Assembly: GCF_014279975.1 (NCBI RefSeq)
Contig: NZ_CP047936.1
Span: 2,418,001-2,482,000 of the forward strand
DNA length: 64,000 bases
From: Synechococcus sp. BIOS-U3-1
Lineage (GTDB): Bacteria > Cyanobacteriota > Cyanobacteriia > PCC-6307 > Cyanobiaceae
Direction of reading: 5' to 3'
A program made the position numbers and the translations under genes. The stretch's first letter is position 1. Each line of letters begins with the position of its first letter. Below are positions 43,343 to 48,146 of this stretch, in pieces. The notes beneath the pieces are model-generated. The model was not told the origin of the DNA. It did not search any database and worked only from the letters and a program-made list of their open reading frames with translations.

Positions 43343-43407
43343 CAGCTCCGTCCACTCACTGATACCAAGATGACAACTACTGCCCAGAGCGACCAGATCA
43401 TCCCCTA

Positions 43408-43863
43408 ATGGCGAAGCTCCCATGGCTCAACCTGACCAGAACCGTGCGCTTCGGCGATACGGATGCCGCTGGCGTGATGCATTTTCATCAGCTGTTGCGC
43501 TGGTGCCACGAGGCATGGGAAGAGAGCCTGGAGCTCTACGGCGTTGAAGCCGACACGATTTTTCCTGGATGTCGTGAGCAGGAACGGTGGCCTGACACAG
43601 CGCTCCCAATCGTGCATTGCAGCGCCAACTTCACCAAAGCGGTGCACGGGGGAGATCAACTGCTCGTACGCCTAACGCCACAACAGATTGACCAGGGGTG
43701 TTTTGAGGTTCGCAGTCAATTTCTACTGAAAGAGCAGGAAGTGGCCAATGGCTTGATCAGACAGCTGGCCATCAGTGCACAAACGCGTCGACGTTGCCCG
43801 TTACCAGTGGCCATCTCACGCTGGATCGAGGCTGCACAAATCGGACAAATCAGGGAGCTGTGA
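43408..43863 (+). CDS. menI: 1,4-dihydroxy-2-naphthoyl-CoA thioesterase
   Basis: A 151-residue hotdog-fold (4HBT) thioesterase. The catalytic Asp19 lies in FGDTDAAGVMHFHQLLRWCHEAWEE. In cyanobacteria this family releases 1,4-dihydroxy-2-naphthoate from its CoA ester during phylloquinone synthesis. The nearby menE-menC-menA and menF support that assignment, although a generic acyl-CoA thioesterase is possible. The start ATG is clear. It lies just upstream of the psbY region. Confidence 0.82.
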   Translation: MAKLPWLNLTRTVRFGDTDAAGVMHFHQLLRWCHEAWEESLELYGVEADTIFPGCREQERWPDTALPIVHCSANFTKAVHGGDQLLVRLTPQQIDQGCFEVRSQFLLKEQEVANGLIRQLAISAQTRRRCPLPVAISRWIEAAQIGQIREL

Positions 43864-44061
43864 GCTCTAAACCGAGCAAGCCCGCTGCCCGCCGGAGCTC
43901 CGGATCCAGCTCAGCTCTTCGAGGCCAATGGCGACACAATTGCGACATCGATTAGTTCAAGAATCTGCAGGCTGATCTTCCATCCGCAACGCTCGCAGCC
44001 ATCAAAGAACACTGAAAAAATTGGCGCCAAAGCTAATTTGTAAATTATTTTTTGAATGCCG

Positions 44062-44196
44062 ATGGATTTGAGAATTCTGATTGTGGCATTGCCCATTCTT
44101 CTTGCTCTGAGCTGGGCCGGCTACAACATTGGCAGAGCTGCGATTGGCCAGCTTCAGATTGCAATCAAGCAATTCAAAACCAATCAAACCTCCTGA
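44062..44196 (+). CDS. psbY: photosystem II protein Y
   Basis: A 44-residue single-helix protein, [20 protein letters not shown] followed by [13 protein letters not shown]. This matches PsbY, a small photosystem II subunit with one transmembrane helix near cytochrome b559, and its usual cyanobacterial length of about 40 residues. The ATG at 44056 (MPM) would add two residues. An AT-rich leader and a 10-bp palindrome TTGGCGCCAA at 44021-44030 lie upstream. Confidence 0.88.
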
Positions 44197-44343
44197 ACAG
44201 AATTCAACTCCTACGTCCGAGCAAACCATTCATCGCTTCTTTAACTATTGGAGTTCTTCTGCAGCATTTTGAAAGTCTCAAACCTCAATATTGCGCAAAG
44301 ATTGTGCAGATTCACGTTTCGTAAGTGATACAAGTCAACCACG

Positions 44344-44736
44344 ATGTTCGACACTTCTGCGGCATTTACAGCACCTTCAGACGCTGAAACGACGTTTGAA
44401 ACGACTTTTGAAAGCTCGGCCGCTTTCACTGCACCGTCTCGTAGCATCCCTTCACCCACAGGCTTGGAACCATGCCTGGGTGGCGAACTGAGACTTCAAG
44501 CAATCTGGGTGGACGAGAAAGTCTGCGTCGGATGTCGATATTGCGCGCACGTGGCAACGAACACCTTCCTCATGGATCAACAGACAGGCAAGTGTCGAGC
44601 AATTCGCCAGGATGGTGATTCAACAATGGTGATCAACGAAGCAATCGATACCTGTCCAGTGGACTGCATTCACTGGATCAGTTTCGAGGAATTAATTGAG
44701 AAGAAAAAGGAAGAAATGGCGAGATCCGCTTGTTAG
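44344..44736 (+). CDS. 4Fe-4S ferredoxin with repeated N-terminal extension
   Basis: A 130-residue protein. The C-terminal part (about 55-115) is a bacterial-type ferredoxin domain with CVGCRYCAHVATNTF (Cys 61, 64, 67), Cys84 and CPVDC (Cys 104, 108), as in cyanobacterial and chloroplast ferredoxin-like proteins. The first 50 residues carry SAAFTAPS twice (5-12 and 25-32) and are otherwise rich in Ser/Thr. The electron donor and acceptor are unknown. It lies between psbY and the convergent cpcL-like linker, whose stop is four bases away. Confidence 0.85.
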   Translation: MFDTSAAFTAPSDAETTFETTFESSAAFTAPSRSIPSPTGLEPCLGGELRLQAIWVDEKVCVGCRYCAHVATNTFLMDQQTGKCRAIRQDGDSTMVINEAIDTCPVDCIHWISFEELIEKKKEEMARSAC

Positions 44737-44740
44737 CGCG

Positions 44741-45475
44741 TCAGCCCACCACAAAAACACTTGCAAAGACTTTCACAATCCCAACAACAATCAATCCCGA
44801 CAAGATTACAAAGGAAGGAATAATATAACGGAACGCTTTATCAGAGGGGCGTTCGTATAGGACTTTCTCGGCGAAGGACTTCGTAGGACCGAAGTTCAGG
44901 TGATCTTCAATCGACATCATCATGTCGTTTGAAATCAACTTTTCCTGCCAATCGTAAGAGTATCGCGGAAGCTCCTGATACACAGGAGCCTCACCAACAG
45001 CTCGACCTGGCAATACTCTTGAGATCTCTAGAGGCACAGTGTCGTAACCAAACCTCTGCATGTACTCCTCACTATTGAGGACCAGATCAACAAAAGCTTC
45101 GAATCCTTTCTCAGCAATAACAATCGAATAAGTTAATTTTTCGGAGTTGTCTCTCACTTTGCGACCCAAAGCCCTGCCGATGACCTGCTCAACAAGGCGA
45201 TAATTACTATTGCAAGCGACATAACCACGCATAAAACGGTCCGAAAGCAGAAGACCGCGAATAAAATCTCTTACTGTGATTGATCCGTTTCTTAATTGCG
45301 ACTCTAGATAGCGATCCTTATCGCTACTCATCGCATGAAAATAAATCTGACGATAGCAACGGTTAATCACATCACCAGCGTTATCAATAACATCCCCTTC
45401 AATCGAGGGAGCATCGATCGTGCTCACACGTATATTTTGAGAGGTAGGCCGAAAGGGCCGAAGGGGAACTGGCAA
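44741..45475 (-). CDS. cpcL: phycobilisome rod linker with C-terminal membrane helix (CpcL-like)
   Basis: A 244-residue protein. An N-terminal phycobilisome linker domain (about 15-165; RYLESQLRNGSITVRDFIRGL, then CNSNYRLVEQVIGRALGR and EAFVDLVLNSEEYMQRFG) matches CpcG-type rod linkers. After residue 215, FRYIIPSFVILSGLIVVGIV forms one transmembrane helix. A CpcG domain plus terminal helix defines CpcL (CpcG2), which anchors rods to the thylakoid and to photosystem I. TTG 45475 gives the MPVPLRPFRPTSQNIRV start of CpcG proteins. The frame is open for 65 codons upstream without family likeness. It is AT-richer than its neighbours. Confidence 0.85.
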   Translation of the reverse strand: MPVPLRPFRPTSQNIRVSTIDAPSIEGDVIDNAGDVINRCYRQIYFHAMSSDKDRYLESQLRNGSITVRDFIRGLLLSDRFMRGYVACNSNYRLVEQVIGRALGRKVRDNSEKLTYSIVIAEKGFEAFVDLVLNSEEYMQRFGYDTVPLEISRVLPGRAVGEAPVYQELPRYSYDWQEKLISNDMMMSIEDHLNFGPTKSFAEKVLYERPSDKAFRYIIPSFVILSGLIVVGIVKVFASVFVVG

Positions 45476-45921
45476 CGAAGAAACCCAGTAAAACTCAGAA
45501 AAATACCTTAAGAGTTCGTCGATATACCGAGGGGGCAAACCGCAAACTAATTCACAATTCAGATGCTGACCGAGGGCGTTCGAATTAAATTGATACGCGC
45601 CTTCGTGGCAAAGGAAACGTGCTCTTTTTGATGGTTTCGTGTTGAGCGAGGGCCTGGCGAACAAGACCAAGGCATCAGCGCCACAAACTCAACAGGTTCA
45701 ACAGACAGATCCGCCAGTGATTCCGATGAGCACGCCGCTTCAAATCAGATCACAGATGCGGCAGCATCCAGCAGGCGGAATGCAACAGATTAAGCTAAAG
45801 ATTGATATTCAAAATACAGCGATTGAACAGGCGAATAGATCTTAAAGTGAGGCTTCTAAGTGAACCTAGGATCAAAGACTAAAGCAAAGATTCAGAGCGA
45901 CTGAGTTAATGACTGAGCTGA
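45476..45921. other. 446-base region upstream of cpcL
   Basis: No gene is supported here. The frame upstream of cpcL is open on the minus strand to 45670, and a plus-strand frame of 68 codons exists at 45639-45845; neither looks like a protein family. The stretch is AT-rich and probably holds the cpcL promoter and the 3' end of the menE transcript. No terminator hairpin with a T run was found. Confidence 0.5.
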
Positions 45922-47169
45922 TTATTGAGTGAATTGTTGAGCTTCCAACCAGTTCTGCCATCGCGCACGCTCCCACTTCCCTGCGGCAGAGCATTCCAGT
46001 CCCTGGCACTGAACCCAATGCAGAGGGCGTTCGGGCGCGGGCCAATCGGACACCAAGCTGCGCAAGCGGTCGAAAGCGTCCGACGACACGTCAATCGACG
46101 ACCAACGAACGAGAGCCACCAATCGTTCACCCCACTCACGGTTCACCAACCCCAGCAACAGCACGGCATCGAGCGGCAGCCCTTGCTTGCGGGCCTCCGT
46201 CAGCAGCCGCTGTTCCAGTTGTGAAGGAAACACTGTGACCCCACCTGAATGGATGGCGTTGTCGATTCGCCCAAGGAGATACAGCTGGGGATCCGTTGCT
46301 GATCCTGCAAGCTCTGCCAGATCAGCTGAATGCCACCAACCAGTCGCGTCCGACAGCGCGCAAAGTCTTCCTGATCCATCAATTCTGGCCACAGCCAACC
46401 GGTCGCAATGCACGGCCAGAGCTCCTCGCTGATTCAATCGCAAACGCACCCCGTCAAGGGATCGTCCACAACCACCCGTCCCCGCCAGAAAATCAAGCGG
46501 CGCCTGGGCCGTCACCATGGCGGCAGTTTCCGTCGCGCCATAACAAGGGGCAAGCCTGATGCCCAGGTCCCGCGATTGATCGGCCAGATCGGCTGGCAAG
46601 GCTGCACCACCAACCCAGATCACCGCCATTTCACCCAACCATGAGCGTCCACAGGGATCGGCTAGAAGCCGCCGCAATTGGGTGGGCACCAGCGAGAGCA
46701 CCATCGGACGCCGCTGCCAAGCTGGATGACGAAAGCTGTATTCGAGAAGCAGAGCAGGCTGTTTGATCAGAGCGGGGGCGATCCAAGCATGATCTGCGCC
46801 CCACTGACGGGCACGCCACCAAGGCATCAGACCGCTTACGTGCTGAAACGGCAGGGGATTCCAAACCAGCGTTGAGGCTGGCTCCAAGCCGATCGTCTCC
46901 AGCCACGACCCGCAGGCCTGGGCAGAGCGGTCCAGATTCGACAAAGGGTGGAGGCAGAGCTGTCGGCCACCGCTGCTACCACCTGTTGACAACACCACTC
47001 CTGGCCCAGGAGGCCAATCAAGTCCATCCGCAGCCAGGGCTTGTCGCTCCGGCTGAACGCCGGAAGGAAGCAGACGCACCCAAACGTGTTCAGCCAGGTC
47101 CGACTCGAGAATCGCAGCAGCCTGACCAGGCTGGGCAGGGTCACAGTGCAGATCCTTCAAACAGGACAT
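45922..47169 (-). CDS. menE: 2-succinylbenzoate-CoA ligase
   Basis: A 415-residue AMP-forming ligase that activates 2-succinylbenzoate in phylloquinone synthesis. The nucleotide-binding loop LSTGGSSGGRQLC is a variant of the usual SGTTGxPK, and WVGGAALPADLA, CYGATETAAMVTA and LGRIDNAIHSGGVTVFP mark the adenylate-forming core. Compared with E. coli MenE the loop lacks the Lys, and the N-terminus is short. Its ATG shares one base with the menC stop (TGATG). It is the last gene of menA-menC-menE. Confidence 0.9.
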   Translation of the reverse strand: MSCLKDLHCDPAQPGQAAAILESDLAEHVWVRLLPSGVQPERQALAADGLDWPPGPGVVLSTGGSSGGRQLCLHPLSNLDRSAQACGSWLETIGLEPASTLVWNPLPFQHVSGLMPWWRARQWGADHAWIAPALIKQPALLLEYSFRHPAWQRRPMVLSLVPTQLRRLLADPCGRSWLGEMAVIWVGGAALPADLADQSRDLGIRLAPCYGATETAAMVTAQAPLDFLAGTGGCGRSLDGVRLRLNQRGALAVHCDRLAVARIDGSGRLCALSDATGWWHSADLAELAGSATDPQLYLLGRIDNAIHSGGVTVFPSQLEQRLLTEARKQGLPLDAVLLLGLVNREWGERLVALVRWSSIDVSSDAFDRLRSLVSDWPAPERPLHWVQCQGLECSAAGKWERARWQNWLEAQQFTQ

Positions 47170-48146
47170 CAGCAATCCAGCGCGGCCGCAGCCCAAACCT
47201 GCTCAGGATCAGAACTGAATAGGCGACCTTCAGGACGCCAACCTGGCGCCAGTCCAGGAGCCACGGGAGTGGGGCCTCGCTGCTGAAGCCCTGCCATCAA
47301 CGCCAGCCAGCGAAAGCCGATACCGGTTTCGAAGACGGTACTGAGCATCAGCCGCGGCCGGCCTTGCTGCAACTGGCGCAGCAAGAGTCTTGGGTCTCCC
47401 TCCAGCAGTGGTCGCCGCACCTGCCAACCCTGCCACTGCTCCCGCAGAACCGGATGCTTCAACAGCGACTCATCCAGGGCGACAGGAACCCGCTTCGCCA
47501 AATCCTGCAGGCCTTGCAGATCGTCCACTGCCAGTGGCTGCTCCAGCCAATCCAAACGGGGATCGCCCTCCAGAACTCCAGCCCATCGATCCGCCTCGGT
47601 CCGAGCCCAGCCGGCATTGGCGTCCAAACGCAGACGCGCCTCGTGCGGCAGCCGATCCAAAAGCCTGGAGAACAACGACCATTCCTGATCCAAGTCCGCC
47701 GCTGCCACCTTCCACTTCACAGTGATGGGCTCACCCACTGGATGAGTCGCTAGCAGTTGGTCCAGAGTCGGCAGCATGGCCGGACCAGCGGGCAGCAAAC
47801 ATGCCGAGCTCGGAGCAGGGAGCCAGGACGGAACAACGCCATCCAGCTCCGCCAACGAAGCACCGAGCGCAAAGCCGACTTCAGCCGGGAGCTTCGGCAG
47901 CAGTGCCTCGAGCTGATCTCGCTTGCACTCCACACCCTCAGCGTTCTGCCATGGAGATAAAGCCCTTGCACAGGCAGGACGGTGCTCTGGATCGAGCGGA
48001 GCCACCTCACCCCAGCCCACCTGGCCGGAGATCGCACACGTCAAACGCAACAACCAACCCTCACGCAGCTGCCAAGCACCTGAAGCAGTCCGCAGCGGAC
48101 GCGAGAGTGAATAGGCATAGGAGCGGATGGCCAGTTGCAGCGTCAT
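47169..48146 (-). CDS. menC: o-succinylbenzoate synthase
   Basis: A 325-residue enolase-superfamily enzyme that dehydrates SHCHC to 2-succinylbenzoate. The TIM-barrel shows VKWKVAA with the catalytic Lys, LRLDANAGW and WLEQPL for metal binding, and VALDESL. The N-terminal cap is divergent, as usual. It lies four bases after menA and overlaps menE by one base, so the three are cotranscribed. Confidence 0.9.
   Translation of the reverse strand: MTLQLAIRSYAYSLSRPLRTASGAWQLREGWLLRLTCAISGQVGWGEVAPLDPEHRPACARALSPWQNAEGVECKRDQLEALLPKLPAEVGFALGASLAELDGVVPSWLPAPSSACLLPAGPAMLPTLDQLLATHPVGEPITVKWKVAAADLDQEWSLFSRLLDRLPHEARLRLDANAGWARTEADRWAGVLEGDPRLDWLEQPLAVDDLQGLQDLAKRVPVALDESLLKHPVLREQWQGWQVRRPLLEGDPRLLLRQLQQGRPRLMLSTVFETGIGFRWLALMAGLQQRGPTPVAPGLAPGWRPEGRLFSSDPEQVWAAAALDC

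Follow-up and report, generated by a model that had tools for sequence, protein, structure and literature searches.

Co-inheritance of the phycobilisome linker CpcGIII with extra PsbY and ferredoxin genes: a candidate accessory antenna module of marine picocyanobacteria

Across two genera of picocyanobacteria, gains and losses of the linker CpcGIII coincide with those of one or both of two partners, a second copy of psbY (psbY2) and a second 4Fe-4S ferredoxin (Fd2), in several different gene orders. The three genes lie side by side in a 64,000-nucleotide stretch of the genome of Synechococcus sp. BIOS-U3-1 (hereafter the window), where a sequence-only reading had proposed that they form an antenna-to-photosystem-I electron-flow module. 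From sequence comparisons, we propose with moderate confidence that the patch is an accessory antenna, photosystem II (PSII) and redox module of marine picocyanobacteria, perhaps serving under iron or redox stress.

In the window, the trio occupies an AT-rich insert of roughly 2 kb, flanked by two genes that neighbor each other in relatives and that lie outside the module: a 4HBT thioesterase-like gene on the left (43408..43863, plus strand) and, on the right, a menE-like O-succinylbenzoate-CoA ligase gene (45922..47196, minus strand), which scores below the NCBIfam cut-offs. The patch (44056-45475) has a G+C content of 46.3%, whereas the lowest value among 295 equally long stretches, sampled at 200-base steps over the rest of the window, is 54.0%. 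This bears out the earlier remark that the patch is AT-richer than its flanks. The intergenic stretch between cpcGIII and menE (45476..45921, no strand assigned) is also AT-rich (46% G+C) and is probably the site of the predicted cpcGIII promoter; a search of 43400-46400 for RNA elements gave no Rfam match at gathering scores. When the insertion site was compared among 28 genomes of the genus with a menE match, the ferredoxin and linker genes were found beside menE in seven, all of them from the window's clade, while in 20 the same thioesterase gene lies within ~600 bases of menE and there is no cassette. The gap between the thioesterase and menE matches at these cassette-free sites is under 120 bases in eight genomes and ~460-600 bases in the other 12 (L213, L214, L217, L221, L224-L231). 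The last of the 28, G155, gave fragmentary menE and thioesterase matches only (L233, L234), menE being seemingly duplicated or broken, with stops, and accompanied by a second thioesterase-like match. Since the linker, Fd2 and psbY of the window are all second or third copies, they are paralogues and not core genes.

The linker gene, cpcGIII (44741..45475, minus strand), encodes a PF00427 rod-linker domain at residues 34-149, which scored 122.8 bits against a cut-off of 28.7 in the family-model search, followed by a predicted C-terminal hydrophobic helix. The highest hydropathy over 19 residues at the C terminus is 2.49, and the AlphaFold2 model, weak overall with a whole-model mean pLDDT of 59, contains one helix at residues 212-242, in which successive ten-residue blocks have pLDDT values of 68, 83 and 80. 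Domain match, hydropathy and model agree with the description of a CpcG-type linker domain with one C-terminal helix, and the latter two point to a single membrane helix of the kind that is characteristic of CpcL. The hydrophobic C terminus is kept in all 20 aligned CpcGIII sequences, and the start codon is TTG in all eight members of the window's clade, four of which were read from matching database records. The protein also carries a near-private cysteine, Cys40, found in 30 of the 31 readable CpcGIII proteins (33 in total). The same position is occupied by Ala in 31/35 CpcGII, 12/12 CpcGI and 15/15 CpcL-type sequences, as well as in 29 of 31 other soluble CpcG sequences from other cyanobacteria, one of which has Cys. 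Cys40 is retained also in CpcGIII genomes that lack Fd2, and Cys88 of CpcGIII is shared with CpcGII.

CpcL, which corresponds to CpcG2 of Synechocystis and CpcG3 of Anabaena, is the linker associated with photosystem I (PSI). It shares with CpcGIII the combination of a PF00427 domain and a single C-terminal hydrophobic helix, but the C-terminal sequences differ and CpcGIII, unlike CpcL, is accessory, being added on top of CpcGII. The genome that contains the window has 13 PF00427 matches, of which three are CpcG-type proteins: a soluble CpcGI-like protein (2297 kb), a helix-bearing CpcGII-like protein that sits in the rod-linker region (549 kb), and the cassette linker (2463 kb). A C-terminal hydrophobic helix is a feature of picocyanobacterial CpcGII too (e.g., L012). 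A tree was built from linkers of 220-300 aa, 128 in number before near-copies above 93% within a group were thinned and 106 afterwards. In it, the 13 CpcGIII sequences are set off from all others by one branch (SH-aLRT 98), and CpcGII and CpcGIII jointly by another (100). Soluble CpcGI (99) and the helix-bearing CpcL-type sequences of other cyanobacteria (98), which were classed by helix and tree place and not by name, lie elsewhere. Constraining all helix-bearing linkers to group together cost 37.9 log units and was not rejected by the AU test (p 0.083; 104 sequences, two long ones omitted). By sequence, the single-domain linkers of solved structure nearest to the cassette linker are soluble CpcG chains (best phmmer E ~1e-46 to 1e-49), ahead of the best CpcL chain (2.4e-39). 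On these comparisons, the linker is a paralogue of the CpcGIII type, and its closest grouping is with the CpcGII of picocyanobacteria. In view of the best tree, the AU value and the structure scores, calling it "CpcL-like" is fair, whereas "CpcL orthologue" is unsupported; the earlier description of a membrane-anchored CpcL-like linker therefore stands as far as the domain and predicted helix are concerned, but the best tree sets the protein apart from CpcL-type sequences.

The closeness of its PF00427 domain to soluble CpcG structures would suit a simpler explanation, in which CpcGIII is simply an additional rod-core linker, replacing CpcGI in ordinary hemidiscoidal phycobilisomes, and its helix is of minor importance. 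We regard this as very improbable, because the hydrophobic C terminus is kept in every aligned CpcGIII sequence and because the linker tree places CpcGIII with the helix-bearing CpcGII and apart from the soluble CpcGI.

A gene named cpcGIII has been reported in the marine Synechococcus strains BL107, CC9902, CC9311 and CC9605, where it is also a third cpcG and lies apart from both the rod cluster and cpcGI (Six et al. 2007, PMC2246261). In the sections of that paper drawn on here it is given without a transmembrane helix, partner or function, and the word psbY is absent from the main text. The cassette linker is likewise encoded by a third cpcG, one that belongs neither to the rod region nor to the cpcGI cluster, and it matches the cpcGIII of Six et al. 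by gene position. Among open-access full texts, cpcGIII was found named only in that paper, subscription journals being mostly outside this search, and no title or abstract opening on this gene combination in marine Synechococcus was found in the open-access literature. The same paper describes CpcGII as undetected in the phycobilisomes that it analysed, though earlier seen in WH8102 (PMC2246261), and this may be because of the hydrophobic helix of CpcGII.

As for the ferredoxin, Fd2 (44344..44736, plus strand) is a single 4Fe-4S protein that matches PF13370 (Fer4_13) above cut-off and has an extra cysteine (GKCRA). Its gene is convergent with that of the linker, the two stops at 44736 and 44741 leaving a gap of 4 bases, so that coordinates and family match both accord with the earlier account. 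A second ferredoxin of the same type is encoded at 2167 kb, behind DUF1257 (Ycf35) and DUF2997 genes, and represents the core copy; DUF2997-ycf35-fed7 is described as a conserved cluster in cyanobacteria (PMC4284462). Fd2 has in common with Fed7 (sll0662) the single Fer4_13 cluster and the CxxCxxC..CPVDC pattern. The characteristic location in the DUF2997-ycf35-fed7 cluster is, however, that of the 2167-kb copy and not of Fd2, which also differs by its private extra cysteine and by the absence of the conserved C-terminal tail of core Fed7-type copies. Because it lies outside the cluster, Fd2 is a Fed7-type paralogue and not Fed7 itself. In a tree of 41 ferredoxins, with core sequences from genus g1 only and three mis-extracted sequences (one core, two Fd2) dropped, the Fd2 sequences of both genera and both gene orders fall on one side of a branch (97/97). 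The extra cysteine is present in all 19 Fd2 sequences, and all 22 core sequences have Ser in its place. In Synechocystis, Fed7 is described as having a role in redox and stress regulation, as dispensable and weakly expressed under standard conditions, and as having a DnaJ protein and ferredoxin-thioredoxin reductase for partners (PMC4284462).

The third gene, psbY2 (44056..44196, plus strand), lies just upstream of the ferredoxin gene, as had been noticed, and its 46-aa product exceeds the cut-offs of both PF06298 (53.2 bits versus 24) and NF009711. PsbY is a protein of PSII. PsbY2 shares its PF06298 core but is the product of a second gene, and its tail (..KQFKTNQTS) is longer than that of the core copy, whose gene lies at ~1380 kb in the same genome (G000:C1:1379620-1379733), in a neighborhood common to a relative without the cassette. 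The tail motif [FY]KxN occurs in all 21 distinct PsbY2 sequences, which were assigned by gene place, and [KR]R[SG][RE][AV] in all 12 distinct core sequences compared. PsbY is reported to sit beside cytochrome b559 (PMC4823308).

Evidence that these genes belong together comes from their distribution. A search of 400 genomes of the family identified CpcGIII in 33 of them (15 in genus g1, 17 in genus g5 and one in a third genus), the call being set by a score gap between CpcGIII (best E <=1.6e-96) and the next match, a CpcGII (5.1e-90). Fd2 is immediately adjacent to CpcGIII in 21 of the 33, convergent in eight genomes (the window's clade) and downstream and co-directional in 13, and psbY lies within 8 kb of CpcGIII in at least 16 (one of them, G440, judged by its coordinates), since not every stretch reached 8 kb. 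Among the 31 genomes of g1, psbY2 is found in 14/15 genomes with CpcGIII versus 0/16 without it, and Fd2 in 10/15 versus 0/16; among the 34 genomes of g5, the corresponding figures are 8/17 versus 0/17 for psbY2 and 12/17 versus 0/17 for Fd2. Taking both genera together (65 genomes), psbY2, Fd2 or both accompany CpcGIII in 31 of 32 genomes and occur in none of the 33 that lack it. In scoring, G171, a fragmented genome with two 59% ferredoxin matches, one of which adjoins a Ycf35-like sequence, was counted as lacking Fd2. Place and identity led us to score as second copies the single psbY match of G161 and the single ferredoxin matches of G161 and G164. For g5, the psbY2 cut was set by eye at 50 bits (the next match being 44.5), and genomes without a listed match were taken to be among the 400 searched. 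In each of G425, G440 and G453, Fd2 is the sole ferredoxin match in the genome and was assigned by place; the G453 gene contains an internal stop.

Shared ancestry was taken into account on a menE+menC tree, which covers 55 of the 65 genomes and has several long branches. Among nine independent pairs, the presence of either partner, a trait defined after the data had been seen, tracks that of CpcGIII in 8-9 and is opposed to it in none (p 0.004-0.008); the signal is weaker for single partners (p 0.03-0.125 for psbY2 and 0.031-0.0625 for Fd2). Neither partner is obligatory, since G101 has CpcGIII without psbY2 and without Fd2 and several other CpcGIII genomes are missing one of the two: Fd2 was undetected in 5/15 genomes of g1 and 5/17 of g5, and psbY2 in 9/17 of g5. 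In the representative of the third genus (G025), neither was found within the 9 kb examined around CpcGIII. The proposal that the patch is a module is nevertheless reinforced by these extra copies of three genes and by the 31/32 versus 0/33 split, as it is by the suggested comparison across clades, in which the same families remain together in several orders, strands and sites.

Physical linkage lets genes travel together, and the co-occurrence is therefore inflated. The three genes could indeed be passengers of one AT-rich family of genomic islands, co-transferred and functionally unrelated, as the AT-richness of the patches and their scattered distribution, with at least nine changes forced by supported branches, would lead one to expect. 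In G061, an integrase of the phage type lies 5.3 kb away from CpcGIII (L055 12465-12971), and ORFs near CpcGIII are integrase-like by sequence similarity in G123, G159 and G174 (loci L192, L193 and L197, the last of which is in G123); both are also compatible with such transfer. We nonetheless consider this explanation unlikely. Order, strand and site vary by lineage and yet the same families are together, two of the three genes come from families that act in photosystems or antennae, and psbY2 or Fd2 without CpcGIII occurs in 0/33 genomes. Moreover, the co-occurrence persists in some genomes at distances of 0.6-0.9 Mb or on separate contigs: psbY2 and cpcGIII are 0.89 Mb apart in G151, and in the draft genome G453 CpcGIII is on a different contig from psbY2 and Fd2, which share one. 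With regard to a phage origin, the linker, psbY and the small proteins F3 and F4 gave no PHROG match, and the ferredoxin gave a weak one (E 1.3e-4). A Photo_RC reaction-centre gene (L197 16498-17577), presumably of the psbA type, lies ~1.9 kb from CpcGIII in G123.

The trio is joined by several small proteins: F3 and F7 are encoded beside psbY2, and in g5 F4 and F8 are found upstream of CpcGIII, at no more than 7 kb in 14 of its 17 CpcGIII genomes. In g1, F3 occurs in 12/15 genomes with CpcGIII versus 0/16 without it; of the three exceptions, one (G101) is without psbY2 as well and the other two are genomes that are 70-73% complete. F3 maps to 348 kb in the window's genome and the cassette to 2462 kb, a distance of 2.1 Mb by coordinates or, should the chromosome be circular, of ~0.6 Mb along the shorter arc, and this co-occurrence far from the cassette counts against pure hitchhiking. 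F3 is part of a second AT-rich patch (G000:C1:348252-351009; L327 9753-12510) with 43.9% G+C, which encodes F3, F7, a flavodoxin, two unnamed proteins and F4 and is conserved in three relatives (G157, G158 and G173). None of the small co-travelling families has a match above curated cut-off in Pfam or NCBIfam, and only the flavodoxin and a DUF4079 gene are named by family models in the F3/F7 neighborhood. In g5, F4, F7, F8 and F9 (L018, L055, L056, L057) are small, mostly membrane-type proteins that recur beside CpcGIII or psbY2. The F3/flavodoxin patch hints at iron or redox stress. The window's clade is probably CRD1, a clade of the iron-poor ocean. A second flavodoxin has been reported in CRD1 (PMC7522525).

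The module had originally been connected to PSI, with CpcGIII as a CpcL-type PSI antenna and the ferredoxin as a dedicated carrier for NDH-1-dependent cyclic flow. The linker domain and helix are as in CpcL, Fd2 adjoins CpcGIII in 21/33 genomes, and the CpcL-phycobilisomes of Synechocystis are described as passing energy to PSI and as part of an NDH-PBS-PSI supercomplex (PMC10322944), all of which favors such a role. However, Fd2 is a paralogue of Fed7, a protein described as dispensable and weakly expressed in Synechocystis (PMC4284462), it was not found in 11/33 CpcGIII genomes (ten in g1 and g5, and G025 within 9 kb), and the third partner, PsbY2, is a PSII protein. The ndh genes of the window had been cited in support, and six of the eight claimed (ndhF, D, G, I, A and H) were confirmed among ten ORFs checked, but they are tied to the site and not to the cassette. 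Of the 20 relatives with a cassette-free site, 14 have ndhH next to it, the other six having no ndhH in the 0.4-0.9 kb beyond the thioesterase gene. For the 25 CpcGIII genomes that do not belong to the window's clade, the stretches around CpcGIII (8.8-19.5 kb) contain no match to the six window ndh proteins. Since ndhH is near the site even where there is no cassette, its nearness in the window is uninformative; the ndh neighbors look incidental, and we rejected the NDH link as evidence. Taken as a whole, the PSI explanation appears to us decidedly unlikely.

In the accessory antenna, PSII and redox module that we favor, CpcGIII, like CpcL, would seed short rods of phycobiliproteins on the thylakoid membrane, and PsbY2 would replace or join PsbY beside cytochrome b559 of PSII. 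Fd2 would be a redox relay or regulator, not a bulk PSI acceptor, and the three together may alter rod-photosystem coupling under a particular redox or iron condition. A bolder version, speculative and in our judgment rather improbable, is that these genes are part of a mobile antenna-switch programme. Iron or redox stress would lead to the production of a membrane-anchored rod antenna built on CpcGIII and of a modified PSII with PsbY2 beside cytochrome b559; the private cysteine of Fd2 and Cys40 of CpcGIII, alone or with Cys88, would toggle the antenna by thiol redox; and F3, F4, F7, F8 and the flavodoxin would belong to the same programme. Such a switch, if true, would be unknown to the field.

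The present comparison bears on how rods are directed to PSI or PSII and on the role of CpcL-type linkers beyond the model strains. It adds a second helix-bearing linker of marine picocyanobacteria, whose presence is linked, through repeated gains and losses, to that of a variant PSII subunit and a redox ferredoxin. Because each gene of the module is an extra copy, it could probably be deleted with core function kept, and the close strain pairs with and without the module constitute a natural experiment.
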